In this document: positions 632 through 25,277 of the stretch, piece by piece
Position numbering within the stretch: position 1 is the first letter of the stretch
Layout: each line of letters opens with the position of its first letter
The notes under the pieces: model-generated
Databases searched by the model: none
Told to the model about the DNA's origin: nothing
The model's input: the letters and a program-made list of their open reading frames with translations, nothing else
DNA from: a virus
Reading direction: 5' to 3' (one strand)
Length of the DNA: 38,857 bases
Virus record (IMG/VR): IMGVR_UViG_3300042691_005800
Location: 1-38,857 of that record
Position numbers and translations under genes: made by a program

Positions 632-1252
632 ATGCCATTAAAGATGTGTAACAAATGCCAGTGTGAAAAGCCAACTTCTGAGTTTGGCAAAGATCGCGCA
701 CGGCATGACGGTTTGACATATCGATGCTTAGCTTGCAGAAAAGTTGCAAATACAAAAAATGCCAACTTAATTCAAGCTCAAAAACGCAACCACTACGAAC
801 GAAATAAAGCTGTATTGCTTGAGCGCAAACGGGAAAGTTACGCTAAAAATTCAGACACCAAAAAAGCGTACCAACGTGCGTATGCGGCGGCTAGACCAGA
901 AGAAACCAAACTTAAATCAAAACTGTTCTATGCAAAGAACCCCGACTACTACAAAGAATTTCGCCAGAAATACCCTGACAAGGTAAACGCAAAAGAAATA
1001 AAGCGCAAAACAGCCAAGATGAATAGAACGCCAGCTTGGTTAACTGAAGACGATTTTTGGTTAATTGAGCAGGCTTATGATTTGGCTGCCAAGCGCACTC
1101 AAATGTTTAAATTTTCTTGGCACGTTGACCACATAATACCGTTACAAGGCAAGATTGTTTCTGGTTTGCACGTTCCACTAAACTTGCAAGTAATACCGGC
1201 ATCAATAAATACGTCTAAACAAAACAAATTTGAGGTGTTGGATGCCGCTTAA
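632..1252 (+). CDS. Free-standing HNH endonuclease with N-terminal zinc finger
   Basis: A 206-residue protein. The N-terminus has two CxxC pairs (Cys6/Cys9 and Cys32/Cys35), forming a likely zinc-binding DNA recognition unit. A lysine/arginine-rich helical linker follows (about residues 45-130). The C-terminus carries the HNH signature: His164, Asp166, His167 in a WHVDHIIPL-type motif, His180, and Asn184 in the downstream NLQ motif. This layout is typical of homing-type HNH nucleases in phage genomes. The gene lies between the lysis and tail genes and its end overlaps the next gene by 11 bases. It looks more A-rich than its neighbours, which fits recent insertion. Target and activity cannot be told. 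Confidence 0.85.
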   Translation: MPLKMCNKCQCEKPTSEFGKDRARHDGLTYRCLACRKVANTKNANLIQAQKRNHYERNKAVLLERKRESYAKNSDTKKAYQRAYAAARPEETKLKSKLFYAKNPDYYKEFRQKYPDKVNAKEIKRKTAKMNRTPAWLTEDDFWLIEQAYDLAAKRTQMFKFSWHVDHIIPLQGKIVSGLHVPLNLQVIPASINTSKQNKFEVLDAA

Positions 1253-3383
1253 AAAACTTCAACAGAAGAGTGGCGTGAATCGTGAGAACACGCGCTATAC
1301 GTCTGAGAACGGCTACTATGTATCCGATAAAATACGTTTTAGGCAGGGCAGCCCAGAAAAAATCGGTGGTTGGCAGCGTATTTCCTCGGCTATTTTCCAA
1401 GGGGTTTGCCGCTCTTTGTGGAACTGGGTGACTCTGGGCGGGCAGAATCTGCTGGGTATTGGCACTAACTTAAAGTTCTACATTGAGAATGGTGGACTGT
1501 ATTACGACGTTACACCCCTACGCTCGGCTGTACAAACTCCTGTAACACTAAACAACCCTTTTGACACTACATCTGGGTCAGACGTTATTAACGTCAATGA
1601 CACTGCCCACGGTTTACTTACCGGTGATATTGCTACCTTTTCTGGGGCCGTTGCGGTCGGTGGAATTCCAGCAGAAGTACTTAACACTAACCACACCATA
1701 ACGTATGTTGGAGCTGACGACTACACAATTACCGTATCTACTACGGCATCATCCACTGTGACTGGCGGGGGCGGTGCATCTGTTTCAGCAACATATACGA
1801 AGCTTAGCGTTGCACTGACAAACCCATTTTCTACGGTTAACGGGTCAACAACTGTCACTGTAACTGACGCAGCTGGTGGCTATACCAATGGTGACTTTGT
1901 TACCTTCAGCGGTGCTACAGCTGTTGGTGGCCTTACTTTAAATGGTGAGTATGAGCTAACCGTAACCGGCACATCTACCACTCAATACACAATTACTGCG
2001 GCAAGCCCGGCTACTTCCACTGCTACGGGCGGTGGGTCTGCTGTGGTTGCTGCTTACCAAATTAACATTGGCGCTCCTTATGCGCTTCCTTTGGTTGGCT
2101 GGGGTGCTGGCCCGTGGGGTGCTGGGCCTTGGGGCGTTGGTGTGGAATCATCTGACCAGATGCGTATTTGGTCACAGGCTAACTTTGGTGAAGACTTACT
2201 CTTTGCACCTAACGGTGGTGAGATTTACGTCTGGAAAGCAAGCTCTTTGCTGACTTCACGGGGTGTGGCTATTAACAACTTGCCGGGAGCTTCTTCCTGC
2301 CCAACGGTTCAGAGTTCTATTCTGGTGTCTGATGCTTCACGTTTTACGTTTGCGTTTGGCTGTAATGACTATGGAAGCACCATTCAAAACCCCATGTTGA
2401 TTCGCTGGTCTGACCAAGAGGATTACTTGGAATGGTTCCCCTCTGCAACCAATCAGGCTGGTAGCTTACAGCTATCCAAAGGCTCAAAGATTGTTACTGC
2501 AATTCAGACCCGGCAGGAGATTGTTGTGTTTACAGACTCAGCTCTGTATTCGTTGCAGTACCAAGGGCCGCCAGCGGTGTGGGGTTCCCAGTTGTTGGGA
2601 GACAACATCTCTATTGCCGGGCCAAACGCAGCTGCAACCGCCACTGGTGTGGTGTACTGGATGGGTATTGATAAGTTCTACAAATACGACGGTCGGGTGC
2701 AGACTCTTAGATGTGATCTGCGTCAGTATGTTTTCCAAGACATTAACTTGGAGCAACAGGATCAATTCTTTGCCTCTACCAATGAAGGCTTTAACGAGAT
2801 CTGGTGGTTCTACTGTTCCGCTGGGTCGTTCACTATTGATAAGTACGTAACATACAACTACTTAGAAGATGTCTGGGCTTACGGCACAATGGCCCGAACA
2901 GCATGGATTGACTCTGCATTGCGTAAGTACCCAATGGCGGCAACGTATACGTACAACATTGTCTACCACGAACAAGGTAATGATGACAACGAAACCGGTA
3001 CAACTTTGCCAATTACTGCCGTTATTGAGACTACCGAGTTTGACATTGATGACGGCGATCACTTTGGGTTTGTCTGGCGTATCCTGCCCGACATTACTTT
3101 CCGTGGGTCTGATACATCATCTCCGCAAGTCACCATGACTTTAATCCCCATGCAGAATGCTGGATCAGGCTATAACGATCCAATATCCTTGGGTGGTAAC
3201 TCGGATGCTACGGTAGTACGTACAGCCACCGTGCCGATTGAAGAGTTTACGGGTCAGGTTTACGTCAGGGTTCGTGGCCGTCAGATGATTATGAAGGTGG
3301 AATCTACCCAGCTTGGGTGCGCATGGCAGCTTGGCTCACCCCGTATTGACATCCGTCAAGATGGCCGCAGAGGTAATTCATGA
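1242..3383 (+). CDS. P22 gp10-like tail/head-closure protein with tandem Ig-like insert
   Basis: A 713-residue protein. I chose ATG 1242 because GAGG (1232-1235) sits 6 bases upstream; a TTG at 1230 in the same frame lacks support. The N-terminus and the repeated short beta segments with aromatic residues in the second half resemble the beta-propeller-like P22 gp10 (DNA stabilisation) family, which closes the portal channel in short-tailed phages. Residues about 103-186 and 192-272 are two related repeats, each with an NPF start, a GDxxTFSG core and a Gly-rich end. These look like an inserted pair of Ig-like or adhesive domains absent from P22 gp10. The family assignment is by resemblance only; an unrelated tail protein remains possible. 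Confidence 0.6.
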   Translation: MPLKKLQQKSGVNRENTRYTSENGYYVSDKIRFRQGSPEKIGGWQRISSAIFQGVCRSLWNWVTLGGQNLLGIGTNLKFYIENGGLYYDVTPLRSAVQTPVTLNNPFDTTSGSDVINVNDTAHGLLTGDIATFSGAVAVGGIPAEVLNTNHTITYVGADDYTITVSTTASSTVTGGGGASVSATYTKLSVALTNPFSTVNGSTTVTVTDAAGGYTNGDFVTFSGATAVGGLTLNGEYELTVTGTSTTQYTITAASPATSTATGGGSAVVAAYQINIGAPYALPLVGWGAGPWGAGPWGVGVESSDQMRIWSQANFGEDLLFAPNGGEIYVWKASSLLTSRGVAINNLPGASSCPTVQSSILVSDASRFTFAFGCNDYGSTIQNPMLIRWSDQEDYLEWFPSATNQAGSLQLSKGSKIVTAIQTRQEIVVFTDSALYSLQYQGPPAVWGSQLLGDNISIAGPNAAATATGVVYWMGIDKFYKYDGRVQTLRCDLRQYVFQDINLEQQDQFFASTNEGFNEIWWFYCSAGSFTIDKYVTYNYLEDVWAYGTMARTAWIDSALRKYPMAATYTYNIVYHEQGNDDNETGTTLPITAVIETTEFDIDDGDHFGFVWRILPDITFRGSDTSSPQVTMTLIPMQNAGSGYNDPISLGGNSDATVVRTATVPIEEFTGQVYVRVRGRQMIMKVESTQLGCAWQLGSPRIDIRQDGRRGNS

Positions 3384-4056: not shown

Positions 4057-5874
4057 ATGGCTGAAGATTACAAGCAACTTATAAAGAAACAAATTCTTGG
4101 TCAAGGTTTAACTGGCAAATGGTCTGGTGCGGGTCACGGTTCTGCTGAGGCAAATGCCGAGGACATGGCTAGGATTCTGTCTAGCATTGGCATTACCGAC
4201 ATCAAGCAGTTTGGTAAAGTTCCAAAGTATGAGCCTGTTCAAGAGATTGGTAAAACATACAACGGCAATCAAGTTGTTCAACTTTACGATGAAGATGCTG
4301 GCACTTCCAGAAACGTCATTAGGCAACCCGATGGCGGCGCTGATGAAGAGGGAAACCCAACATATAAGATGGTTGATGTCCCACAAGACGCAAAAATAGA
4401 TACTCAATATGGTCTTGCTCAGGACAACGGAGAGGGTGGTTTCAACTACACACCAGTTGATCCATCAAAAGTTAAAACGGTAAACGGGCAAGCGGTAGCC
4501 GATACTGGGCAAACAACATTTGGAAATAAAGTTACTGGTCAAGAAGTCCCGAACACATACACCGAGCGCCAAACGGGGAACTTCTTTGGTGGCACTTATG
4601 AGGGAAAAGGAAACACCGGTTACGGTGTGCAATTTGATGACCAAGGTAATCCGTATTTCTACACACAGGGCGCGTCTAGCAGTGACTTGGGAAGTATTGC
4701 CCCACTGCTGTCAATTGCTTCATTTATTCCCGGCGTAGCTCCATTTGCTCAAGGTTTAAACGCACTGATTGCAGCCAAGCAAGGCAATATATTGGGTGCA
4801 GTTGCAGGTGCTGCTGGTCTTGGTAGTATGGCGGGTATCAGTGGCATGGCTGATGTTGCCAACGCAGCTAAATTCGCGGGCGCTCTAAAAAGTGGCGATC
4901 CGTTAGCAATTGCTATGGCTGGCGCTAATGCTGGTGGAATAAGTGATGTTGGCGGCTTTGACCTTAAAGATATTTCCAAAACAATTGGCGCGGTTAAAGC
5001 AATTGAAAGTGGTGATCCACTAGCCATACTGCGTTATGGCATGGATGCAATTCCAAAAGGCGACAACCTTACTGCTTCTCTTGGCCCCGGCGACATGGAT
5101 GAATTTAGAGAGAACCTAATCCCCGGTATGTTTAAACCCGGCAGTGGTGGGTACTCATCCTTAACTGGCGGCTCGGATAGTGACGGTTATGAAAGTGTGT
5201 TTGACCCAACCTTTGGCGGCACAATGCCAACCGGCTCCGGCTACATTGATGAAACAACGGGTGAGTTTGTTTCAGACCCTTTGGGTGGAGTACAAGGCCC
5301 ACTTGGGCCAGAGACAGGCAATATCGACCCCAACAAAGAATGGGAATACAGCCTGACTAGACCCGGAGTTTGGACAAGCAAGGATGGCGAAGAGATTGAT
5401 GTGAGCTACATGCCAGATCGAGACACAGCCATAAGCGGTGCGGAGTTAATGAAAAGAGCTGGGGCTATGCCCGGCGGGGCTAAGAAGGCGGCTCCAGCAA
5501 AACCCGCAGCTAGACCAACTACGCCCGGCGCAAGGCCCACTACACCCGGCACAAACCCTGCGGTAGATGCAATAACCAACTTAGCTAATCAACAGCAACA
5601 GCAACAAAACGCCTTGTTGAACATGATGATGAGTGACAAGACTGAGGGCGCTAAGATAAAATCGTTCAAAGAGCTTTACGGGGAAGACTTGTTTGGGGGG
5701 CGTTATGTCCCGCCTTCCGCGCTCGGTGCTGACGACGGGTTTTCAGGAATGCCTATGCCGATGCCGATGCAAGGGATGGCACAAGAGCAGGATGACGGGG
5801 ATGGTGGGTTTTCTAATGGTGGTCGCGTAAACAGTACTGACGTTGACACCTTGTTACAAATTTTGAGGGGTTAA
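4057..5874 (+). CDS. Virion-associated low-complexity protein (possible internal/ejection protein)
   Basis: A 605-residue protein with SD AAGGAAAAAT before ATG 4057. It is rich in Gly, Ala, Asp and Asn. A small-residue-rich hydrophobic stretch runs from about residue 210 to 300, with two copies of a GDPLAI motif that suggest an internal repeat. A Pro/Ala/Thr-rich linker (about 470-500), a poly-Gln run (about 515) and a Met/Pro repeat follow. The C-terminus ends in a short tag of the form F-x-x-GG-x-V followed by LLxxLR, which recurs in neighbouring proteins. I do not recognise a family. Size, composition and place in the late operon suggest a minor virion protein that helps DNA ejection. Confidence 0.55.
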   Translation: MAEDYKQLIKKQILGQGLTGKWSGAGHGSAEANAEDMARILSSIGITDIKQFGKVPKYEPVQEIGKTYNGNQVVQLYDEDAGTSRNVIRQPDGGADEEGNPTYKMVDVPQDAKIDTQYGLAQDNGEGGFNYTPVDPSKVKTVNGQAVADTGQTTFGNKVTGQEVPNTYTERQTGNFFGGTYEGKGNTGYGVQFDDQGNPYFYTQGASSSDLGSIAPLLSIASFIPGVAPFAQGLNALIAAKQGNILGAVAGAAGLGSMAGISGMADVANAAKFAGALKSGDPLAIAMAGANAGGISDVGGFDLKDISKTIGAVKAIESGDPLAILRYGMDAIPKGDNLTASLGPGDMDEFRENLIPGMFKPGSGGYSSLTGGSDSDGYESVFDPTFGGTMPTGSGYIDETTGEFVSDPLGGVQGPLGPETGNIDPNKEWEYSLTRPGVWTSKDGEEIDVSYMPDRDTAISGAELMKRAGAMPGGAKKAAPAKPAARPTTPGARPTTPGTNPAVDAITNLANQQQQQQNALLNMMMSDKTEGAKIKSFKELYGEDLFGGRYVPPSALGADDGFSGMPMPMPMQGMAQEQDDGDGGFSNGGRVNSTDVDTLLQILRG

Positions 5875-5876
5875 TT

Positions 5877-8366
5877 ATGGGTGAACCAGTATACGGCTAC
5901 GAAAACGGTGTTCCAGTAAACGGGGACGCGTACGACTTCAATAAACTCATTGGCATTTCCCCCGGAAGTACTTCGCAATATCGCAATGCAGATTCGCCCA
6001 GCAATCGGGAAATTCAACAAAGCATTGACCCCAATTACGGCGGTATTGGCAGTTTTATTAAGGATCTTTTTACCGATAAGAAAACCGGTAATTTAGACAT
6101 GCGAACCGTTGGCGCTTTAGGTGGCGCTTTGGCTGGCGGGCTTGGAGCCTTGCGCCCTAACACCCAAAAAGGTGGATACCAAGGTGGCATTCCACGATAC
6201 ACAGCAAACCGTAGTATGGTAACTGCTCCTCCCGCTGGTAGCCGCCCCGGTGCTGGCGGTGTTAGCTATGGCGGTGATGTTAACTACACAGTATCTGGCA
6301 AACCAACCGGTGTAGGTTCTTCTGATGGTGGTGGCGGCGGTGGTGGTAGCTCTACATTAGGAAACATTGCTAAAGTAGCTGGTGGTGCTGGATTGGCTGC
6401 ATTGCTTGGTAACTATCTTAGTAAGCCGGGTAATGCAAGTAACGCCATTGGCTCCATTTCTAATATATTTAAAGGGATTGGCGGCAGTGCTCCACCCGGA
6501 TCTACTGCTGGCGGAACGCTAAAGAGAATACCAAAACTGGATGAATTTACTGGAATTGATAAACAGATTAGAGACAATCTAGCGTCTCAGCTTCCAAATC
6601 AGTTAACCGATGCAGAAGTTGAAGCTGAGTTTGATCGTCTTCGTGGCGAAATACCAGAGTATGAAATGCCAGAGTATGAAGCGCCAGCGTTTACGCAATT
6701 TCCGTCATACGATGACTATCCTTACTTTGGTGAAGGTGAAAGTTTTATGTACGCTAAAGGCGGCAATGTAAACAGCCCTCGCTACCTACAAGGGGAGACT
6801 GATGGCATGGCTGATAAGATTCCAGCCCGTATTGGTCAGAGCCAACCTGCTGCGCTTAGCCATGGTGAGTTTGTTGTCCCTGCGGATGTTGTGTCTCATT
6901 TGGGCAACGGTAACTCTGATGCCGGAGCTAAGAAGTTATACAGCATGATGGACAAGATTCGTCAAGCTCGTACCGGCACAAAGAAGCAAGGTAAGCAAAT
7001 CAATCCCGACAAGTTCATGCCCGGTGGTTTGGCCCAAGCTTATGCTGATGGCGGCGCTGTTAAGAAGTTTAATACCGGTGGGGCATCAGGCGTTGGCTCT
7101 GCGGCAGCGGCGGGCGTGACCGGTCAAGAGCAAGCCCCTGCAACTTGGGCGGGCGAGTACATCACCGACATGCTCGGTAAAGGCCGCGCATTGTCTGAAG
7201 CTCCATATCAGCAGTACGGTGGCCCATTGACTGCGGGTGCTTCTGGTTTGCAACAGCAAGCGTTCCAAGCTGCGGGTAATCTGTCTGTGCCTAGCAGTGT
7301 TGGTCAAGCTACTCAGACTGCGGGTGATATTGCTGCCAAAGCTCAAGGCATAAACTACGGCCCAACTAAGTTTGATAATCAGTTTAAAGCGCCAGAACTT
7401 TCTGCTGCCACGCAGTTTACAAACCAGTTTAAAGCACCCGACCCGTACCAAAGTACAACGTTCAAATCAGGCACTTTTGGTCAGGAGCAAGCTCAGCAGT
7501 ACATGAATCCGTACTTGCAGGCTTCTTTGAACCCACAACTAGAAGAGGCTCGCCGTCAGTCAAACATTAGCGAGCAAGCAAACAAAGCTGCAATGACCAA
7601 GGCTGGTGCTTTTGGTGGTGGCCGTAGCGCCATCTTGACCGCAGAGAACCAACGTAACCTTGGCACTAACCTAGCTGGTATTACAGGTAAGGGCTATGAC
7701 ACTGCGTTCCAGAACGCTATGTCTCAGTTCAATGCTGACCAAGCCCGTAACATGCAGGCACAGCAGGCATCTGAGCAGTCTAAGCAGTTTGGTGCTACTC
7801 AGGGCATGACTGCCGCTGACATGATGGCTAAGTACGGCATGTCTGCACAGCAAGCTCAAGAAGCTGCACGTCAGTTCAACCAAGGCCAGTCTATGACTGC
7901 GGCTCAGCAAGCCGCTCAGTACGGTCAAGCTGCCAACCAAGCGTCTGAACAATCCCGTCAGTTTGGTGCTGACTTGGGACTCAAAGGTCTTCAGACTGGT
8001 CTTCAGGCCGCACAGACTCAAGGTAACTTGGGAATTTCTGGTGGTCAGTTGGGCTTGGCTCAGTTGCAAGAACAGGCGCGTCTTGGTGCTCAACAGCGTG
8101 GTATTGAGGCTGAAGGTATTGCCGCAGACAAGGCAGCATTTGAAGAAGCTCGTGAGAATCCATTCAAGATGGTTCAGTTCCAGCAGTCTTTGCTCCAAGG
8201 TTTGCCAATTTCCGCAACCAACTACAACATGGCTCAACCTAGCACATTGCAGGAAATTCTTGCGGGTGCGGGCGGTGGAGCTAAGTTGGCCGGTAACACA
8301 GACAGCGGCATCACGCTTGACCGATTGCTTGGTAACTTAGGATTTGGGTCTTCATCCCCAAAGTAG
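5877..8366 (+). CDS. Large virion protein, zero-frame product (829 aa)
   Basis: This begins 2 bases after the previous stop, with GAGGGG as SD. The N-terminal third is Gly-rich with a poly-Gly linker (about residues 153-159). Residues about 290-410 carry GG-tag motifs (YAKGGNV, YADGGAV) and a block containing SHGEFVVPADVVSHLG, which I have the impression recurs in uncultured phage proteins. Residues about 460-780 are Gln/Ala-rich helical sequence with repeats such as NQFKAPE/NQFKAPD, QAxEQSxQFGA and AQYG, as in internal or tail-tip proteins that unfold on ejection. The frame ends ...SSSPK-stop at 8364-8366 directly on a slippery heptamer, so a fraction may be extended by 119 residues. The molecular function is unknown. 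Confidence 0.65.
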   Translation: MGEPVYGYENGVPVNGDAYDFNKLIGISPGSTSQYRNADSPSNREIQQSIDPNYGGIGSFIKDLFTDKKTGNLDMRTVGALGGALAGGLGALRPNTQKGGYQGGIPRYTANRSMVTAPPAGSRPGAGGVSYGGDVNYTVSGKPTGVGSSDGGGGGGGSSTLGNIAKVAGGAGLAALLGNYLSKPGNASNAIGSISNIFKGIGGSAPPGSTAGGTLKRIPKLDEFTGIDKQIRDNLASQLPNQLTDAEVEAEFDRLRGEIPEYEMPEYEAPAFTQFPSYDDYPYFGEGESFMYAKGGNVNSPRYLQGETDGMADKIPARIGQSQPAALSHGEFVVPADVVSHLGNGNSDAGAKKLYSMMDKIRQARTGTKKQGKQINPDKFMPGGLAQAYADGGAVKKFNTGGASGVGSAAAAGVTGQEQAPATWAGEYITDMLGKGRALSEAPYQQYGGPLTAGASGLQQQAFQAAGNLSVPSSVGQATQTAGDIAAKAQGINYGPTKFDNQFKAPELSAATQFTNQFKAPDPYQSTTFKSGTFGQEQAQQYMNPYLQASLNPQLEEARRQSNISEQANKAAMTKAGAFGGGRSAILTAENQRNLGTNLAGITGKGYDTAFQNAMSQFNADQARNMQAQQASEQSKQFGATQGMTAADMMAKYGMSAQQAQEAARQFNQGQSMTAAQQAAQYGQAANQASEQSRQFGADLGLKGLQTGLQAAQTQGNLGISGGQLGLAQLQEQARLGAQQRGIEAEGIAADKAAFEEARENPFKMVQFQQSLLQGLPISATNYNMAQPSTLQEILAGAGGGAKLAGNTDSGITLDRLLGNLGFGSSSPK

Positions 8367-8394
8367 ATTCCGCCGCGTCTTCGGATAGCGGCGG
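8357..8394 (+). promoter_or_regulatory. Predicted -1 programmed ribosomal frameshift site
   Basis: The zero-frame codons TCC CCA AAG TAG contain the heptamer C CCA AAG (8357-8363) in the correct X XXY YYZ phase. After a 6-base spacer (8364-8369) there is a 7-bp all-GC stem: CCGCCGC (8370-8376) pairs with GCGGCGG (8388-8394), with an 11-base loop. An AGGA (8339-8342) lies 14 bases upstream of the heptamer and could act as a stimulatory SD, somewhat farther than in the dnaX case. Slipping back one base enters the open frame that runs to 8722. All three elements of a bacterial -1 frameshift signal are thus present. A base error in the C4/A3 run could also explain the split frames. Confidence 0.7.
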
Positions 8395-8722
8395 GGGCTT
8401 GGGCCTAGGGTTAGGATTAGCTGGTGGTTTGGCTGCTGCGGCTGCGTCACGCCCTGCTGAGCCTGAGCCTATGTTTACGCCAAGGCAAGAACCGTCTTAT
8501 GCATATAACCCACCGCCTCCTGAGCCACCACCCCCGCCACCTCCGCCTCCTGCTCCGCCGCCTACTCAAGACTTTTCTGAAGAGCAAAATCAAGGAACAT
8601 TCCAGTTTGACGGCACAGGTGGGTTTGGGCGTTCTGGAGGCTATGGCCGAGATTTAGATGACCGGTATTACGAGCAAATGTTTGCCAAGGGCGGTTTAAT
8701 AAATCTTCTCCGTAGACGCTAA
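8363..8722 (+). CDS. -1 frame extension: Pro-rich linker plus C-terminal GG tag
   Basis: This 119-codon open frame continues from the frameshift site. It has no convincing start of its own: the first TTG (8399) sits inside the hairpin's downstream flank and no ATG occurs before about residue 33. The encoded segment starts with Ser/Gly/Ala-rich sequence, then a proline run of the PPPPEPPPPP type (about residues 52-70), then a Gly/Phe/Tyr-rich part, and ends with FAKGGLINLLRRR. That end matches the tag style of the preceding 605-residue protein and the following 676-residue protein. I read it as an optional C-terminal extension giving a fusion of about 948 residues, not as a separate gene. Separate initiation at TTG is the alternative. 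Confidence 0.6.
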   Translation, partial: VDSAASSDSGGGLGLGLGLAGGLAAAAASRPAEPEPMFTPRQEPSYAYNPPPPEPPPPPPPPPAPPPTQDFSEEQNQGTFQFDGTGGFGRSGGYGRDLDDRYYEQMFAKGGLINLLRRR

Positions 8723-8758: not shown

Positions 8759-10789
8759 ATGAGTGTTGGCATTGATAAACTTGTAGATGCATTTATGGGC
8801 AACCCAGCGCCTTTGGAAGCCAAAGTGGAAAAAAATCAGCAACGTCAAAAGCCCGGTGAGCTTCCCGAAGATTTTGAAGAAGCTTTGGCGCTTCAGCAAA
8901 TTAATGAGTTGCGGCAAGGTGCACAGAACCAGCAAGCTATGCAGGCGGGCGGTGCTCAACCTTCTATCGTTGAAAAACTAAAGCAGATGCTTGCGGCTCA
9001 GCAACGTGGACAATCCCAGCCCATGCCGGGCCAACCCCCTCAGTTCCAGCCACCACAAGGTCAACCCCAGATGGCGCAAGGTCCTCAAGGCGGTCCCCCA
9101 CCCATGCCACAAGGCCCGCAGGGTGGCCCTCCCCCCGCACCACAAGGGCAACCCGTAATGGCAGCTCGTGGTGGCAGTATTGATCAGCTCATGTCTAACC
9201 TTGGTCGCCACTACGCTGGCGGCGGGATTATTGCGTTTAACGGCGAAGATGAAAGTAAAGTTCCTACAGAAGAAGAACTTGAAGCTCAACGCAGAGCTGA
9301 TAAAGAAAAAATTGATGCGCTTGCTAGGGCGCTGGGAAAAACCGGTGGTGAGTACGCTGGTAAGAGTATGGCCGCCCTAGCGGATATTGCAAGTTTGATT
9401 CCTCGTGGTTTAGCTGGCGCAGTTGATACTGCAATGATTCGCCCTGCACGCGCATTGGGCGCAAATGTTGATTATTTAAAACCTGCATTAACCCCCGGCA
9501 ACCAAAGTTCGGACACCATGACTCCGTTCTATGATCGGTATATCCGCGCTAAAGAAGGATCGGCAGAACTTGCAGCAAGTGCTGAGCCTTCCAAAAAAGG
9601 ATCCCAACGGTACTCTGGTATGCCGAGCGGGAGTGGATATAACTTACCTGAAGGTTCACCCAACCCAACGATACAAAATACATATATAGATAAAAACGGT
9701 GTCCGTCAAGCCCGCCCACCGAATGTAAGCGACGAAGCATGGGCAAAGCATGTACACGAAAATGCCCGTCGCGGTGAACAAACACCTACTTCACGAGGAG
9801 CGGGTGACAGAACTGTTCCTCGCTACCCTAATCCAGTCCCAAGAAAAGAAATAACAGGAACTTCTCCTGATGATGTTAGACCTACGCAACCTCGTCCTAG
9901 CGCCGGTGGACCTAGCGTTGGTGGACCCGCCGCACCTGCGGCAGCAGCACTTGACCCCAACAGTTTGCGTGCCCTTATTGAAGCCAATATTCGCAAGGAA
10001 TTAGGTAAAGATGAAAGTGCTGAGTGGGCTAAAGGAGCTAAGCGCTACGAAGATTTCATGGGGATTGACAAGCTTTTGCAGCCCCGCGAAGCCCGTATTG
10101 CTGAGCGCCAAGAGATGATTAGAAGACTCCAAGGCGAACGCACCCCCGCATGGGTTGAAGCTTTGTCTGCTGCCGGTACTCCAATTCGCGGCGGAGTTGG
10201 TTCATTGATAAACATGATGGGCAATAAAGCTGAAGCTACTCGTAAAGGCTATTCCGCCGAGGATCTTAAGTTCTTTGATGAAATTGGCGCTATGCAAGAC
10301 GAAGTTGCCAAACTTAAACTTGAAGGCAAATACAAAGCTGCTAATGCGGGCGAAGCCGCGATTAAGGATGCTATTGCTAATAAACGTCAGTCAGAGTCCT
10401 CTGGTGCAAGCCTAGTTGCTACTGACGAGCGGGCTGAAGCCAGCAAACAGATTGCTCTTGATAATCGTTTAGCCCGCGCTCAGACTGCTGCTATGCAAGC
10501 GGAAGGTAAAAAATCAGAGCGTCAACAAAGACAACAAAACTGGTTAGCCGAGCAAGAGCGCAAATCGCAGGAAACATTAAACCGTAATCCAGAATATAAA
10601 GCGTTGATAGAACAACGCGCCATGCAAGAGCGTTTGTTAAATATATCAACTAATCCTAAGACACAGGAAAAAGCTCAGGCGGCAATTGACGCAATAAACG
10701 AAAAAATTGCTAAGATGCTGCCCGCAGCGGGGGGCGGAGCTGCTAATATACCTCCTCCACCAAAAGGTGCTGTTACAAGGGTTGGATAA
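8759..10789 (+). CDS. Gln/Pro-rich virion protein (676 aa), function unknown
   Basis: SD AAAGGAAATATC precedes ATG 8759. The first 80 residues are helical and Gln-rich. Residues about 83-132 are collagen-like, with repeated PQGGPPPMPQG units. GG tags follow (ARGGSIDQLMSNLG and YAGGGIIAF, residues about 135-160). A helical, Ala/Lys/Glu-rich second half includes a long predicted coiled coil (about 390-640). The gene ends TAATG-coupled to the 2094-residue protein. Its place between two large virion proteins and the shared tags suggest a part of the same internal or tail assembly. No enzymatic motif is visible and no family is recognised with certainty. Confidence 0.55.
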   Translation: MSVGIDKLVDAFMGNPAPLEAKVEKNQQRQKPGELPEDFEEALALQQINELRQGAQNQQAMQAGGAQPSIVEKLKQMLAAQQRGQSQPMPGQPPQFQPPQGQPQMAQGPQGGPPPMPQGPQGGPPPAPQGQPVMAARGGSIDQLMSNLGRHYAGGGIIAFNGEDESKVPTEEELEAQRRADKEKIDALARALGKTGGEYAGKSMAALADIASLIPRGLAGAVDTAMIRPARALGANVDYLKPALTPGNQSSDTMTPFYDRYIRAKEGSAELAASAEPSKKGSQRYSGMPSGSGYNLPEGSPNPTIQNTYIDKNGVRQARPPNVSDEAWAKHVHENARRGEQTPTSRGAGDRTVPRYPNPVPRKEITGTSPDDVRPTQPRPSAGGPSVGGPAAPAAAALDPNSLRALIEANIRKELGKDESAEWAKGAKRYEDFMGIDKLLQPREARIAERQEMIRRLQGERTPAWVEALSAAGTPIRGGVGSLINMMGNKAEATRKGYSAEDLKFFDEIGAMQDEVAKLKLEGKYKAANAGEAAIKDAIANKRQSESSGASLVATDERAEASKQIALDNRLARAQTAAMQAEGKKSERQQRQQNWLAEQERKSQETLNRNPEYKALIEQRAMQERLLNISTNPKTQEKAQAAIDAINEKIAKMLPAAGGGAANIPPPPKGAVTRVG

Positions 10790-13700
10790 TGGCTAAATTT
10801 GCTGTAAACGTTGAAGGCGCTAAATACGAAGTTGAAGCGCCGGATGAAAATACAGCGTGGCAGTGGGCATATACAACCCACATGCAGGGGCAAAGGCCTG
10901 CTCCTAAACCTGCCGCGCCTAAGATTCCAGAACGTACTTTTGGTGAAGCGTTTACCGATATTGGTGCGGCTGGTCTTGGCGGTATTGGCAGTCTTGTTCA
11001 GCTACCCGGCCAACTTTATGGTTTAGCCACAGGTGACTTTTCTAAGACAGGCGCATTGGGCGCTGGTCAAGACATTGAAGAATATGCAAAAGGCTTAAAG
11101 TCGCAGTCATTGTTGGCTCGTGAAAAAGCTCGCGCTGAAAAGGTAGCGCAGGCAGAAAAGCAAGGCCAGTTTGCTGCATTTAAAACCGCTTTGGGTGAGA
11201 CTGTTTCTGACCCAGCACTGCTGACATCATTCTTAGCTGAACAACTTCCACAGATTATCCCTGCCGCTATCACAGGCGGTGGCACAGCCGCGCTCACTTC
11301 TGGTAGTACTCTAGCCAAAGAGCTCGCCAAAGGCACGGCAAAAGAAGCCGCTGAAGCTGCCGCTAAGAAAGCCGCAGTCAAAGCTGGTACGACAGCCGCT
11401 GTTCAGACTGGCGCTGTCCAGCAGGGCGCAGATATTGGTGCTGGCTCGTATGATGAGATCTACGCAGAGTTGTCTAAGAGAATGCCCGCCGAACAAGCTG
11501 CGGCTGAAACTATCAATTTAGCACGAGCTGCTGGTGTATCAGGCTACGCACTGTCTGTTTTAGCTAATCGTTTCTTGCCCGGTGGCAGTGCGCTTGAGCG
11601 CGTGCTTGCTGGTGAAAAAACAGGCGCAGGTATCATACGTGGCGGCGTTGCAGGCGCACTTAAAGAATTGCCAAGCGAGAATGTGGAAGAAGTTGGTGGT
11701 CGCCTTGCGCAAAACATTGCAGCTCGCGCCGCTGGCCTTGATCGTGACTTAACTTCGGGCTTGGGTGAAACTGCGGCCATGGCATCAATTGGTGCTGCTG
11801 GCATGGGCGGAGTAACTGGCATCGTTGGGGGCCGTCAAACAGATCAACAAATACGTGATGAAGTTCTAAGACAAGAAGCACTCAAGCAGCGCGAAGAGGA
11901 ACAGCGGAAACAAGAAGAAGCTCAGGCACTTGCTGAGACTGCTGCTGAAACTGCTACAACTGAAGTTAAAAAAGAAGGCAAGCCTTCAATCGTTGGCACT
12001 GAGTTTGAAGAAGTTGCGCCCGGCACTATTGTAGAAACACCATCAGTAGACATAGCTGAAGTACAGCGCGATCCAAAGATCGTAGCGATGCAAGCCGAGT
12101 ACGATAAACGCGACGCTGAGATCAAAGAGATGGAGTCCCGTGGCACAACTCTTACAGATTCTGAGCGTGGGCTTCTTACAGGCAAACGCAATAAAAACGC
12201 AAAACTTAAAGCGAGTATTGACGATGCGTTATCCAAGGTCAGTCCGAAGGGAGCGGAAGATGTTACAGGAACTCTCGGTCAAGCAGCTGGAACGAGCACT
12301 ACGCTACCTCCACAACCAGCCGTCATCGTTCCCCCCGCCGCAGGAGCTGGAGAAGCTAAACGAGATGGAATGGTTTCTACTGGACCGGATGTTACAGGCA
12401 CTGCTGAAGGAAAAGGAACAGAGTCCACTACAGTAACTAAATCAACTGGCCCATCTGCCGAAGTCAAAAAGGAAATGGACGAAAAAGTCCAGCAAGTTTC
12501 TGAGTTGTATGATGAAGAACGTGAGTACGCCAAACTAGACGACGATGGCGCAAACCTTTACGATGCGCTTCAAAGCGGAAAACTTCCAGCTGGCATGGAG
12601 TTGGGCACGGCTCGTCTTGATGCTGTGCTTGAGCGCAACGAGCTAGAACTGCCTGACCTGCCTGATAACTTTGAAACACTGCCACCACAAGCTAAGGTTG
12701 AAGCAGTAAACGAAGCGCTTAACGATCTAAAACAGCAGATTGACGATAAGCGTGCCGTGCTTGTGCCATGGGAGAAACTTACAGATGACCAGCGTCAGGT
12801 CTATCTGGATAACGTCCGTAACAACACCGCTCAAGAGCATGCTAGTGCGCGTCGCGCTTTGGTTAAATACCGCAGACAACTGCGTGAGACGCAAGGTAAG
12901 CCCAAAGATCTTAAAGCTGATCCATCTGCCGGCATCTATGAGCGCAACCGTCAAGCATACAAATCTCGTGACAGATTAGAGTACCCCACATGGGAGCAGC
13001 TCAATGATGAGCAACGTGCGCTGTACAACAAAACTTTGTCTGACAAACAAAAAGACATAAAGAACGCCACCGCTGAAGATCACGATACGGCTTTTAAAGC
13101 AGTTGCAGATAAGCTTGTACAAGAAGGTTACATTCCCGCTCCCGGTAAGACCTATCTTGATGTACGTGAAGCGCAACTTAAAAAGTCTGAAGCTGAGTCT
13201 CAAGAGCGTGCGCAACGTGAAATTAAAGAAAAGCGCGAAGGCAAGAAAGCTAAACCTACGGGCGAAAAGAAAGTCCCCAATGCTTTGATTGATAAGATCA
13301 AAGAAGGTGATCTTGGAGCAGTGCTAAATTGGTTGTCTACTTCAATTCCTAATCCTAATAAAACAATCGCTATAAAGCTTCAGCGACTCGTTGCTTCACG
13401 TATTAAAAGTTTAGGACTAAAGACAAAGATCAAGTACGTTGACTCACTGCCTGATGGCGACATTGCGCAGTACAACCCAGAGTCTGACACTATCTTAGTG
13501 ACACCAGAAGGCGCAACAGCCACTACACTACTGCATGAGCTTGTTCATGCCGCAACAATAAAAATTCTTGATAGAGTATCTAATAACGACACCGCTAATC
13601 TGACGCCTGAGCAGATTGATGCGGCTAACCAGCTTGATGACATCATGGCACTTACGGCAAGTGATCTTGCTGAGTTGTTCCCCAATGCGTACAAAAACAT

Positions 13701-16700
13701 TTTTGAGTTTGTTAGTGAAGCGATTTCTAACCCAGAGTTTCAGGATGCGCTGAAAAAATATCCAGCCACAGGACTTGAGTACACACTTACCCCAGACCGC
13801 AGTGCGCTTTCTAGGTTTATAGAGAATGTTATTGAGATTCTTAATTTAAAGAATCTGTTTACAAAATCTGGCGCGTTTGGCAAAGCAAACCTTTTGTCTG
13901 AAGCCTTTACTGCGTTTGAAAGTATCATTGAAGTGCCAGAGGGTGGCATTGAACGCGCGCCGTTACCAGCTCCTAAAGCTGCCCCAACTACACAAAAAGC
14001 CAAGAACAAAGTTGATGTAACAACTGAAGAAGCAATCAAGCGTAATGAACTACCTGAAACAAGCGGTATCAATGCAGTGCGCAAGTTGTTCACAACACGC
14101 CAAGGCGGTATGAACTTGGTGACTAAATTCCAGAACGCTCGTTATGCAATCAAGAGCTGGGAAGATGGTTTGACCCGCGCCGGTAAGATTATTTATAGCG
14201 GCAGTAAACTGAACAACATCTATACACAGATTGCCTTAGCCGCTTCACGCGCTAAAGATTTGTATTTGACCAAAGTCAACACTCCGGCAAGTGATATGCA
14301 GAGCGCCATCGGTGCATATGCCAAGGCTTCGGGTCTGACTACCAAAGAAGCGACCGAGCGTTTACATGTATACCTGATGGGTCTGCACGAGGGTGAGCGT
14401 CGTGATGTGAAGTACATGATGAATGTACCGCTTAAGAACGACAAGATTCTGAAGATTGGCAATGAGGTCATGAGTCCAGCTGAGTTCCGTGAGCGCATCA
14501 TGGATGAAGTGTTGTCTGGCACATTGAACAAGACACAGATTGAGACTGCTCGCAATGCTCTTAATAATGTTGTGGCTAAGTATAAAGACCCAACTGGCTC
14601 AAGTCCAAACGGATACAAATCTGTTGACCGCAACAACGAAGAGTACAACGTCATCGGTGGCTACACACCTAAGTCCATTCAGAATTTTATTGATTCTTAT
14701 GAGAACGATCCTAATAAGAAGGAAGTGGACAAAGTCATTGCCGCCATGCGCAAACTGCAGGATGCCACAAAAGAGCTGAACAAAGAAGCTAACTACTGGT
14801 CAGCGCCCGTGCAAAGTATTGTGGACTTTTACGGTTGGAAAAACTACGTACCTTTTGCTGGTAAAGAAAAGTACACCAATGAAGCCGATGCGATGCTTGA
14901 CTTTAATAGCAACCGCCTAGGTCGTGAAATGCAAGAGGGTCAAAACTCTTTTGAAGGTCGTGAGACTGACTCCGATAACTCTATCGTCCAATCATTGACT
15001 GATGCAACGCGTGCCGCTATGCGTGCTGGCCGTAGAGACGTAACACTTGCTATCAAGAACGCCGTAGCCAAAGACAAAGACGGTAATCAACTACTTAAAG
15101 GTAGGATCGCTAAAACAATTCCATTTGCAGATCGCTACAAAGACCTGAACATTGGTGAAGAGAAAAAAGAAAACATCATCTTCCATTACAACAAAGATGG
15201 CAGTATTGATGTAATCGAGATCTATGACAAGGCGCAACGCAACGCTATCCGTCGTACCTATGAGCAGTCTCAGCCAATCATTGATATGCTGAACCACATC
15301 ACTAGCGGTGTGGGTCAAATGCACACTCGTTACAACATAGCGTTCGCGCCGGTTAACTTCTTCCGCGACGCTTTGACAAACGCCTACACAATCGGTGTTG
15401 AGATGGGGCCAAAAGCTGCCGCTCAATTCATCGGCGCTATTGCTACAGATGTAGCAAGTGGTGGTTTGTTCCGCGCCGCTAAAGTTGCCGCGCTGTATGA
15501 AGCTGGTAAGTTTGATCAAATTAAAGCGATGGCGAAGAAGAGTGACTATGTACGCGACATGCTTGAGTACATCGAGCAGGGCGGCAAAGTGTCGTACCTT
15601 GCTGGTCTCTCTTCCAAGGGTCAGTTTAAAGAGTTACAGAAGTCGCTGGACCGTACCGGCATTCTGAAGACCAAAGATCAGATCGACAAGTTTGTTGACA
15701 TCTACACCGACATGTTTGAATTGGCAAGCCGCACTGCGGCGTATCGTATTGCCAAATCTCAAGCACTGGCAGAAAATCTTTCCCCTGCCGATGCGCAAGT
15801 CAAAGCTGCTGGTTATGCTAAAGGTCTTGCCAACTTTGAACAGGTTGGTGAGTGGGGCCGTGCCGCTGGTGCGGCGTTCATGTTCTTCCGTCCAGCCGCT
15901 ACTGGCGCTGTCAGGGCTATTGAAACATTAGGCCCAATGCTACGCGATCCAGAAGATGCGTTGAAAGAACTGCCTGAGTACATTCAAAAAGACAAAGTGG
16001 CTCGCGCTGAGTTCTTGAAAAAGTACAACGAGCAAAAGAAGGCCGCTACTGCAATGACTTTGGGCTTGCTTGGCATGGGCAGTGCAATCTATTTGATGTC
16101 TATGGCATTGTCTGACGATGATGATTTAGGCCGCAACCGCACTGCTACTGACGACGCAAACCGCTGGTCACGTTACGCTCGCTTCCATATTCCCGGCATG
16201 GATACACCCATCCAGATCCCTTGGGGCTTTGGACTTGGCGCGTTTGCATCTGCTGGTGGACAAATCGCGGCGTTGGCTACAGGCAACTCATCCGTTAAGA
16301 CTGCGCTTAGCAACATTGTTGTCACAGGCTTGGATTCGTTCTTGCCGCTGCCGGTCTCGCGCATTAGTCCTATAGACAACTTCCCAGCATGGGCGATGGA
16401 CTCCGCTACACCTTCCGTTGCGCGTCCGTTCCTTGAGTGGGTTATGAACGTTGATGGTCTGGGTCGTGAGATTTATAACAACCGTCAGTCACGCTACGGC
16501 GATGCCTACACAGGTGGCGACAACATCCCTGAGTTGTACAAGTCAGCGGCCCGCACTCTTGCTGAAATCACAGACGGTAAAGTGGACTGGAGTCCTAACA
16601 CGATGTACTTCTTCGCCAATAACTATGGCGACGGATTGATGCGTTTGGCGCAGACTGGATACAACTACGGCTTACTTGCGGCTGGTGAGAAGGCATTTAA

Positions 16701-17073
16701 TCCTAAGACTGATACCGTGTTCTTTGATAGCTTCTTTGGCGCACCGTCAAACTTTGATGCGCGGCAGTTCTCAGAGGTTGAGAAGCAGATTTTGTCTAAG
16801 CAACAAAAGCTCAATATGTTCAAGGATTCAAACCCAGAAGCGTATGCCCGATACGTTGAGAAGAATCCCATGGACGAGTACATAGTCGAGCACTACAACA
16901 AAGTAATCAACCAAGACTTGAAGAAGTTGCGGGAAGAGGCAAACATTTACCGCCGCATGCCGGGCCTGACTCCCAAGGAACGTACTGAGGCGGTTAAGAA
17001 TACTGTTAAATTCCAAAACTTAGTTAAGCGTGGAATCATTGAAGACTTTGAAATGATGGGTGTTGAACCCTAA
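10789..17073 (+). CDS. Giant polyvalent/ejection protein with HELVH metallopeptidase domain
   Basis: A 2094-residue protein coupled to the previous gene by TAATG. The N-terminal 30 residues form a small domain with GAKYEVEAPDENTAW. Ala/Gly-rich helical sequence and coiled coil follow up to about residue 870. A zinc-peptidase motif His916-Glu917-Leu-Val-His920 lies in LLHELVHAAT, with Glu973 and Glu977 in EFVSEA as a likely third ligand (gluzincin type). Residues about 1500-1720 (from RYNIAFAPVNFFRD to FFRPAATGAVRA) resemble the LPD38-type domain of large polyvalent proteins. A hydrophobic helix sits at about 1756-1775. Such proteins are packaged in the virion and injected with DNA. The peptidase could trim other internal proteins or act on the cell wall or a host target. 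Confidence 0.75.
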   Translation: MAKFAVNVEGAKYEVEAPDENTAWQWAYTTHMQGQRPAPKPAAPKIPERTFGEAFTDIGAAGLGGIGSLVQLPGQLYGLATGDFSKTGALGAGQDIEEYAKGLKSQSLLAREKARAEKVAQAEKQGQFAAFKTALGETVSDPALLTSFLAEQLPQIIPAAITGGGTAALTSGSTLAKELAKGTAKEAAEAAAKKAAVKAGTTAAVQTGAVQQGADIGAGSYDEIYAELSKRMPAEQAAAETINLARAAGVSGYALSVLANRFLPGGSALERVLAGEKTGAGIIRGGVAGALKELPSENVEEVGGRLAQNIAARAAGLDRDLTSGLGETAAMASIGAAGMGGVTGIVGGRQTDQQIRDEVLRQEALKQREEEQRKQEEAQALAETAAETATTEVKKEGKPSIVGTEFEEVAPGTIVETPSVDIAEVQRDPKIVAMQAEYDKRDAEIKEMESRGTTLTDSERGLLTGKRNKNAKLKASIDDALSKVSPKGAEDVTGTLGQAAGTSTTLPPQPAVIVPPAAGAGEAKRDGMVSTGPDVTGTAEGKGTESTTVTKSTGPSAEVKKEMDEKVQQVSELYDEEREYAKLDDDGANLYDALQSGKLPAGMELGTARLDAVLERNELELPDLPDNFETLPPQAKVEAVNEALNDLKQQIDDKRAVLVPWEKLTDDQRQVYLDNVRNNTAQEHASARRALVKYRRQLRETQGKPKDLKADPSAGIYERNRQAYKSRDRLEYPTWEQLNDEQRALYNKTLSDKQKDIKNATAEDHDTAFKAVADKLVQEGYIPAPGKTYLDVREAQLKKSEAESQERAQREIKEKREGKKAKPTGEKKVPNALIDKIKEGDLGAVLNWLSTSIPNPNKTIAIKLQRLVASRIKSLGLKTKIKYVDSLPDGDIAQYNPESDTILVTPEGATATTLLHELVHAATIKILDRVSNNDTANLTPEQIDAANQLDDIMALTASDLAELFPNAYKNIFEFVSEAISNPEFQDALKKYPATGLEYTLTPDRSALSRFIENVIEILNLKNLFTKSGAFGKANLLSEAFTAFESIIEVPEGGIERAPLPAPKAAPTTQKAKNKVDVTTEEAIKRNELPETSGINAVRKLFTTRQGGMNLVTKFQNARYAIKSWEDGLTRAGKIIYSGSKLNNIYTQIALAASRAKDLYLTKVNTPASDMQSAIGAYAKASGLTTKEATERLHVYLMGLHEGERRDVKYMMNVPLKNDKILKIGNEVMSPAEFRERIMDEVLSGTLNKTQIETARNALNNVVAKYKDPTGSSPNGYKSVDRNNEEYNVIGGYTPKSIQNFIDSYENDPNKKEVDKVIAAMRKLQDATKELNKEANYWSAPVQSIVDFYGWKNYVPFAGKEKYTNEADAMLDFNSNRLGREMQEGQNSFEGRETDSDNSIVQSLTDATRAAMRAGRRDVTLAIKNAVAKDKDGNQLLKGRIAKTIPFADRYKDLNIGEEKKENIIFHYNKDGSIDVIEIYDKAQRNAIRRTYEQSQPIIDMLNHITSGVGQMHTRYNIAFAPVNFFRDALTNAYTIGVEMGPKAAAQFIGAIATDVASGGLFRAAKVAALYEAGKFDQIKAMAKKSDYVRDMLEYIEQGGKVSYLAGLSSKGQFKELQKSLDRTGILKTKDQIDKFVDIYTDMFELASRTAAYRIAKSQALAENLSPADAQVKAAGYAKGLANFEQVGEWGRAAGAAFMFFRPAATGAVRAIETLGPMLRDPEDALKELPEYIQKDKVARAEFLKKYNEQKKAATAMTLGLLGMGSAIYLMSMALSDDDDLGRNRTATDDANRWSRYARFHIPGMDTPIQIPWGFGLGAFASAGGQIAALATGNSSVKTALSNIVVTGLDSFLPLPVSRISPIDNFPAWAMDSATPSVARPFLEWVMNVDGLGREIYNNRQSRYGDAYTGGDNIPELYKSAARTLAEITDGKVDWSPNTMYFFANNYGDGLMRLAQTGYNYGLLAAGEKAFNPKTDTVFFDSFFGAPSNFDARQFSEVEKQILSKQQKLNMFKDSNPEAYARYVEKNPMDEYIVEHYNKVINQDLKKLREEANIYRRMPGLTPKERTEAVKNTVKFQNLVKRGIIEDFEMMGVEP

Positions 17074-17294
17074 CCCATGCGCCAAGAACGAACACCGAGG
17101 ACGCCGTTCTCGGTGCAAGTGAAAGTCTTCATCTTTATTCCAACTTTTTTAGACGTTGTGTCTATGATGTAGCCCATGTATGCGGGGCGCATAGTTGGGA
17201 TAAAGAAACTCTCCCCCACAAGCATGTACTCGTAGGGGAAAAGCCACTCGGGTTCGTCAAGCGGAGCCGCTTCACTCGGTAGTTTCTTGCTCAT
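17070..17294 (-). CDS. Small conserved phage protein with SFFIP motif (74 aa)
   Basis: The start codon lies inside the end of the primase gene (23-base overlap), preceded by a weak purine stretch AAGAGA. The stop overlaps the stop of the opposite-strand giant gene by 4 bases. The sequence has a GESFFIPT motif at about residues 27-34, then a basic segment, and an ending of the form ENGVxGVRxWR. From memory, this pattern recurs in many short phage proteins annotated as hypothetical; the beta-rich ending could bind nucleic acid. As the last gene of the leftward replication operon it is probably co-expressed with the primase. The function is not known. Confidence 0.65.
   Translation of the reverse strand: MSKKLPSEAAPLDEPEWLFPYEYMLVGESFFIPTMRPAYMGYIIDTTSKKVGIKMKTFTCTENGVLGVRSWRMG
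17093..17115. terminator. Hairpin at the convergent junction, possible bidirectional terminator
   Basis: CACCGAGGAC (17093-17102) pairs with GTTCTCGGTG (17106-17115) across a GCC loop, giving 10 pairs including one G-U. It lies 20 bases past the stop of the rightward late operon and within the last codons of the leftward operon, exactly where the two transcription units meet. On the leftward strand the hairpin is followed by TTCGTTCTT, a weak U-rich tail; on the rightward strand there is none. A terminating role is inferred from position and stem strength. Confidence 0.45.
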
Positions 17295-24639: not shown

Positions 24640-25277
24640 ATATCTGTGCGCTCCTTTTTAGAACCAGTAGAAGTTACCATATTTAAGCGCTTAGGGTTGA
24701 ACCCGTTCTCGTAAAAGGATGCGCCACGCAAGATCATGAAGAACTTGTCGCCATGCCAAGTGTTGCCAACAACAAACGTGCCTACATTCATACGACCACC
24801 AAAGATATTTAAAGCGCACACAGAGTCGACCTTCTTGCCGCCCGTGTACATACTGCTTGGTGATTTGTTTGTTTGGACTGGCCCTATGAATACAGGCATA
24901 TTCAGGTCACGTGCATAAGCCGCCGCTTGCTCCAAATGATCTGCAAGAGTTGTTGCGGCGAGACCGTTGGGAAAGTGCGGTGACATGTGTCGTTTAACTT
25001 CTATGCCAAACTTGATCTCACGGTCCTCGTGCATAGCCGTCACAACGAAGTCGATTGCCTTGCCGCTTGTTGTTTTAACTTCTTTCTCATAGCTCCAACC
25101 CTTCTCGTCAAGCAGTTCGCTCACTAGGTTAGACGCCGCCTTCTCAGTAGCGTAGTCAGACGCAAACAGTTGTTGATTCCGCTTTTGTTCTGCTTGTTGT
25201 TGTTCAATTGTTTTAACCAAAGGGATTTGTGTTTCAAGCCCCATTCTTCGCAACCAAAGCGCGTCTTTAGCTTTCAT
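24636..25277 (-). CDS. Probable PD-(D/E)XK nuclease of unassigned family (213 aa)
   Basis: The start is TAATG-coupled to the DNA polymerase. After a helical start (residues 20-60), the sequence KAIDFVV (Asp76) and GIEVKRH (Glu93, Lys95) is spaced as in the PD-(D/E)XK fold, and a downstream amphipathic helix contains QAAAYAR (about residues 117-123). The last 80 residues are beta-rich and not recognised. Being wedged between the polymerase and a second PD-(D/E)XK enzyme supports a DNA-processing role, such as a Holliday-junction resolvase or restriction-like nuclease. The fold call is from motif spacing only. Confidence 0.6.
   Translation of the reverse strand: MKAKDALWLRRMGLETQIPLVKTIEQQQAEQKRNQQLFASDYATEKAASNLVSELLDEKGWSYEKEVKTTSGKAIDFVVTAMHEDREIKFGIEVKRHMSPHFPNGLAATTLADHLEQAAAYARDLNMPVFIGPVQTNKSPSSMYTGGKKVDSVCALNIFGGRMNVGTFVVGNTWHGDKFFMILRGASFYENGFNPKRLNMVTSTGSKKERTDI

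Follow-up and report, generated by a model that had tools for sequence, protein, structure and literature searches.

The 829-residue gene and its 3′ end

The window, by which we mean the whole 38,857-nucleotide stretch of viral DNA analysed here (IMG/VR record IMGVR_UViG_3300042691_005800), contains an open reading frame for an 829-residue protein whose last codons are TCA TCC CCA AAG, followed by the stop codon TAG at 8364-8366. The initial annotation had predicted a programmed −1 frameshift at this junction, and on re-reading its coordinates for the heptamer, the spacer, the stem, the open reading frame and the −1 frame were all found to be right to the base. The features of the region are as follows.

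4057-5874, + strand: upstream gene whose product, as read from the sequence, ends in frame with a similar tag, FSNGGRVNSTDVDTLLQILRG
5877-8366, + strand: short-form 829-residue gene, an open reading frame with homologues in 76 viral loci
8357-8363, + strand: slippery heptamer C CCA AAG, in phase, invariant in 12/12 clade contigs
8364-8366, + strand: 0-frame stop TAG, directly 3′ of the heptamer (TAA or TGA, one codon later, in type B relatives)
8364-8369, + strand: 6-nt spacer TAGATT from heptamer to stem, of the same length in both stem types
8370-8394, + strand: GC stem-loop with arms CCGCCGC (8370-8376) and GCGGCGG (8388-8394), from its fold energy a probable frameshift stimulator
8357-8722, + strand: −1 frame extension comprising a Gly/Ala segment, a Pro-rich linker and the C-terminal tag FAKGGLINLLRRR, open and homologous in 12 contigs
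8681-8719, + strand: C-terminal tag FAKGGLINLLRRR of the extension, with xGGL(I/V)(D/N)LLRR kept in every member

The 829-residue protein gave no match to Pfam or PHROG, and an AlphaFold model built from 28 homologues was of low confidence (mean pLDDT 51), with long helices at residues 536-775. Searching cultured phage genomes with the protein yielded only four matches, all partial, and no relative was found in the bacterial genomes searched. The genes in this region encode, in order, an M15 endolysin, endonuclease VII, a gp10-like stabilization protein, and proteins of 222, 605, 829, 676 and 2094 residues. Phage DSL-LC04 has a similar order in the interval from its stabilization protein to its DNA transfer protein, and by this likeness the 829-residue protein falls within the probable cluster of ejection or internal virion proteins of a phage with a short tail. 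Since no domain match was found and the predicted structure is of low confidence, we infer this probable role from gene order only.

Three further observations concern these genes. The gene for the gp10-like stabilization protein (1230-3383), with a listed TTG start, overlaps the end of the endonuclease VII gene (632-1252). Residues 749-1093 of the 2094-residue protein (10789-17073) match phrog_2206, a virion RNA polymerase family (E 9e-16); the position of the gene, however, suits a DNA transfer or ejection protein. Many distant relatives encode the 829-residue protein as two genes, the break coming after a conserved GKQINPDKFMPR end; given these split genes, the protein looks like a fusion of two modules.

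The −1 frame runs to a TAA stop at 8720-8722. It has 121 codons including the shared Pro-Lys pair, of which 119 are new, in agreement with the earlier prediction of two forms of 829 and 948 residues. The same stretch contains seven stop codons in the 0 frame and nine in the +1 frame. As candidate starts the −1 frame offers two TTG codons, at 8399 (just 3′ of the stem) and 8429, and two ATG codons, one at 8471 and the other late in the frame, close to its end. The Gly/Ala segment of the extension is hydrophobic. Pfam returned no match for the extension, which consists of Pro-rich low-complexity sequence and a short tag, with no Ig-like domain.

The stem in the window consists of seven base pairs, all GC. 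It folds at −18.5 kcal/mol, compared with −11.9 ± 2.3 kcal/mol for shuffled sequences (z −2.85), and its stability exceeds that of 97.8% of synonymous recodings encoding the same −1 frame peptide. Heptamers of the form XXXYYYZ occur in phase 39 times in the 10,829 codons of this genome, and CCCAAAG itself is found in phase twice elsewhere, in a primase-like gene (17272-20148) and a DNA polymerase gene (25277-27145). Among codon triplets with invariant amino acids, 27 of 316 (8.5%) are as frozen as the Ser-Pro-Lys codons at the heptamer, and we therefore rejected invariance of the heptamer as evidence in its own right. What goes beyond chance, on comparison of the sequences, is conservation of the whole arrangement in relatives.

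Conservation of the junction in related phages

A scan of IMG/VR with the 829-residue protein yielded 76 loci. A second scan brought in L096, a further and divergent member of the clade. The clade compared here comprises 12 contigs from uncultivated phages (the window, L002-L009, L011, L021 and L096) and is small, with seven distinct junction sequences including that of the window, partly common through recent descent or recombination. The junctions are of two types: in type A the stop directly follows the heptamer (window, L002, L003, L004, L009 and L021), and in type B it lies one codon further on (L005-L008, L011 and L096). All 12 contigs have the heptamer in phase, a stop zero or one codon later and a −1 frame that is open for 121-276 codons. 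The relation of the frames is always −1; none of the 12 has the frames fused or the −1 frame closed. In L096 the Ser codon before the heptamer, TCC, is changed to a Pro codon, CCC, and the heptamer is unchanged. An extension in the +1 frame was ruled out, this frame being closed within 10-35 codons in the members checked and after 15 in L096.

The stems differ in sequence between the two types, CCGCCGC/GCGGCGG in type A versus CCCCC.CCRG/CUGG.GGGGG in type B, and both begin exactly 6 nt 3′ of the heptamer. Between L006 and L007 a G-U pair becomes A-U and the stem is kept; L005 has lost 6 nt, in the loop only. For each junction, folding was compared with that of 1000 synonymous recodings of the same −1 frame peptide, and all seven distinct junctions folded better than the recoding mean (z −1.05 to −2.96). 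The L009 stem was only modestly better than the recodings (15%), and that of L096 did not differ significantly from simple shuffles (z −1.2). A Shine-Dalgarno-like GGAGGG lies 8 nt upstream of the slippery site in L003, L004, L005, L009, L011, L021 and L096; the window lacks it, with a weak match only, as do L006 and L007.

Changes in the length of the −1 frame among members are in frame. The middles of the extensions of L009 and L096 are very different from the rest, and the final tag is the same. Over the first 70 codons of the −1 frame, the least number of changes at codon positions one, two and three was 24, 18 and 93. Between TTG 8399 and ATG 8471 the pN/pS ratio was 0.14 in the −1 frame, compared with 3.5 and 8.0 in the other frames, and it was 0.11 in the Pro-rich part; across both parts the other frames gave values of 3.5-20. 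The stretch from the heptamer to the TTG, which is short and uninformative, gave 0.81 because types A and B differ there. As judged from this pattern of substitution, the −1 frame is evolving as a protein, under protein-coding selection.

Most homologues outside the clade, which are about 25-60% identical, have no extension and end at the same point, with the next gene following; L013, for example, ends ...LNTLGLGTTPPK*. The short form is thus ancestral and the 0-frame protein is complete rather than broken, and the extension is therefore an addition that is reached only by a shift. In six distant homologues of the 829-residue protein (L073, L074, L075, L077, L123 and L127), a Gly/Ala segment, a linker and a similar tag end are present in frame.

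The initial annotation had likened the Pro-rich linker and GG tag to the ends of neighbouring virion proteins, and a similar tag is indeed found in frame on the product of 4057-5874. Tags like the C-terminus of the extension end the product of this upstream gene in frame in the clade and in many relatives, and in several relatives that lack the frameshift a linker rich in Pro or Thr precedes the C-terminal end of the upstream product. It was also observed that counterparts of the 4057-5874 product in many relatives have xGG...LLxxLR-like ends, several of them after Pro/Thr-rich linkers. From sequence comparison, a shared virion tag on these counterparts is possible.

When DNA was scanned for the pattern of the type A junction, three unrelated contigs, L138, L141 and L142, matched as well; these were taken as chance 19-nt matches and not as clade members. 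The −1 frame of L141 and L142 has 33 codons. In L138, a different phage, a 0-frame open reading frame within the region L138:611-1304 ends ...GWQPPK* at CCCCCAAAGTAGATTCCGCC and is followed by a −1 open reading frame of 200 codons, for which no Pfam match was found and whose sole start candidate is a GTG three codons upstream. This arrangement may be another frameshift or an overlapping gene.

Alternative explanations for the −1 frame

The main alternative is that the −1 frame is a separate small gene, unfused to the 829-residue protein and translated from an internal start, either at TTG 8399 or by re-initiation after the TAG. The TTG is kept at this position in all members but L096, it is preceded by a weak match to the anti-Shine-Dalgarno sequence (−5.5 kcal/mol), and the 0-frame stop lies about 33 nt away, so that coupling is conceivable. 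However, L096, the most divergent member, has CCT AGT in place of the TTG, the one codon at which separate initiation of the extension would be plausible, and yet keeps the heptamer, the stop, the stem and the −1 frame. Moreover, the only candidate Shine-Dalgarno sequence for TTG 8399 sits inside the stem, and a start would leave unexplained both the invariant in-phase heptamer and the constant 6-nt spacing. ATG 8471 is not the start, because the coding signal spans the region from the TTG to well beyond this ATG. We consider a separate gene unlikely.

A second alternative, that the extension is a relic of an old frameshift mutation which cut the protein and left the −1 frame no longer expressed, is very improbable: in 12 contigs the −1 frame runs without a stop for 121-276 codons and changes length in frame, its pN/pS is low, the final tag is kept, and the short form has the ancestral length.

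The C4A3 run is a plausible place for an insertion or deletion, and in principle the frame change could have arisen through an error of sequencing or assembly. Eleven other contigs show the same relation of the frames, which excludes such an error; in the type B members both the stop and the flanking bases differ. Slippage by RNA polymerase instead of the ribosome would have the same protein outcome, and its probability is equally negligible. Known bacterial RNA polymerase slippage sites are longer single-base runs, whereas the run here is only CCCC AAA, and neither the codon phase of the heptamer nor the spacing of the stem would be explained.

Of the homologues in the clade, none merges the frames, closes the −1 frame or provides this frame with an ATG and Shine-Dalgarno sequence of its own. 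The comparison thus bears out the programmed −1 frameshift of the initial annotation, the heptamer, the 6-nt spacer, the GC stem and the −1 frame being kept in all members.

Proposed mechanism and relation to known systems

We propose, with a probability of about 0.9, that ribosomes undergo a programmed −1 frameshift at C CCA AAG, which yields a tagged long form of the 829-residue protein. The tRNAs on CCA and AAG would re-pair with CCC and AAA, allowing a fraction of the ribosomes to get past the stop. The GC stem 6 nt downstream would act as a stimulator, as would, in most relatives, the Shine-Dalgarno-like GGAGGG 8 nt upstream. In E. coli, C_CCA_AAG is highly shift-prone according to a review (PMC5009743). 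Shifted ribosomes would add 119 residues in the window and up to about 274 in relatives, consisting of the hydrophobic Gly/Ala segment, the Pro-rich linker and the C-terminal xGGL(I/V)(D/N)LLRR tag. A probable ejection-cluster virion protein of the phage would then exist in two forms, one short and one long and tagged, at a set ratio. The shift presumably takes place in the host at some rate.

We also infer a docking or assembly function for the tag peptide, with the shift setting the number of copies that carry it. A more tentative suggestion, which we think more doubtful than probable, is that frameshifting controls the dosage of a C-terminal assembly tag carried on a Pro-rich stalk. On this suggestion a similar GG/Leu-Leu-Arg tag would be fixed in frame on the neighbouring virion protein, while the tag would be present only on shifted copies of the 829-residue protein; if it is true, the shift would set the number of copies docking at a shared head or portal site before ejection. 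A gene caller would end the protein at residue 829 and overlook a further 119-274 residues under selection. The locus would be a clear additional example of isoforms made by frameshifting in a probable ejection-cluster protein, and it points to a conserved C-terminal tag common to neighbouring virion proteins.

The junction has elements of a bacterial −1 signal, in which an upstream Shine-Dalgarno-like stimulator is optional, with an in-phase X_XXY_YYZ heptamer at the overlap of the frames and coding selection on the −1 frame. Such signals have a structure about 5-9 nt after the heptamer, and here the stem stands at 6 nt in 7/7 junctions, with modest significance in L009 and L096. In dnaX the heptamer is likewise closely followed by a stem and is preceded by a Shine-Dalgarno-like sequence, as it is in most relatives here. 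The dnaX shift makes a shorter product, whereas the shift at this locus would make a longer one. The lambda-type G/GT tail assembly chaperone frameshift, said to have been described by Xu, Hendrix and Duda in 2004 (a paper cited in PMC10885494), is likewise a −1 shift; it takes place at a heptamer of the X_XXA_AAG type close to the end of a structural-region gene. It concerns a small chaperone pair, whereas here a 948-residue protein of a virion cluster would be made within a short-tailed gene order, and the 829-residue locus is not a small gene pair just upstream of a long-tail tape measure gene.

In T7 gene 10 (10A/10B) and T3 gene 10, a virion protein of a podophage is likewise made in two forms by a −1 shift at the end of the gene, which adds a C-terminal extension (PMC5009743). 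As with T7 10B, the extension here is added to an otherwise complete protein. The T7 signal differs in combining G_GU.. with a distant element, on the major capsid protein, whereas C_CCA_AAG with a close stem is found here, on a probable ejection-cluster protein, and the extension here is a Pro-rich linker with a tag. No sequence relation was found between the T7/T3 gene 10 system and the 829-residue system. Lactobacillus phage A2 and Listeria phages PSA, A118 and A500 likewise have frameshift-made C-terminal additions, Ig-like or other, on capsid or tail proteins (PMC5009743). In that class, whether a related module lies in frame or out of frame varies between phages (PMC5009743), and the same switching is seen here for the tag. 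The extension here differs in being of low complexity, with no Pfam domain and not Ig-like, and stands on a different protein. For Alteromonas virus vB_AspP-H4/4, a putative slippery sequence that leads into the gene for an internal virion protein, overlapping an endolysin gene, has been reported without tests (PMC5658483).

The initial annotation had regarded the locus as outside the usual setting of such signals. This holds in that the context is not that of a tail chaperone, but the case is less unusual than supposed, since T7/T3 gp10, phage A2 and Listeria PSA/A118 make frameshift-extended phage virion proteins an established class (PMC5009743). Our search of the literature found no description of a shift that makes isoforms by acting at the end of an ejection-cluster protein. 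Phage virion proteins extended by frameshifting are already known, and what is new here is a variant on a probable ejection-cluster protein.
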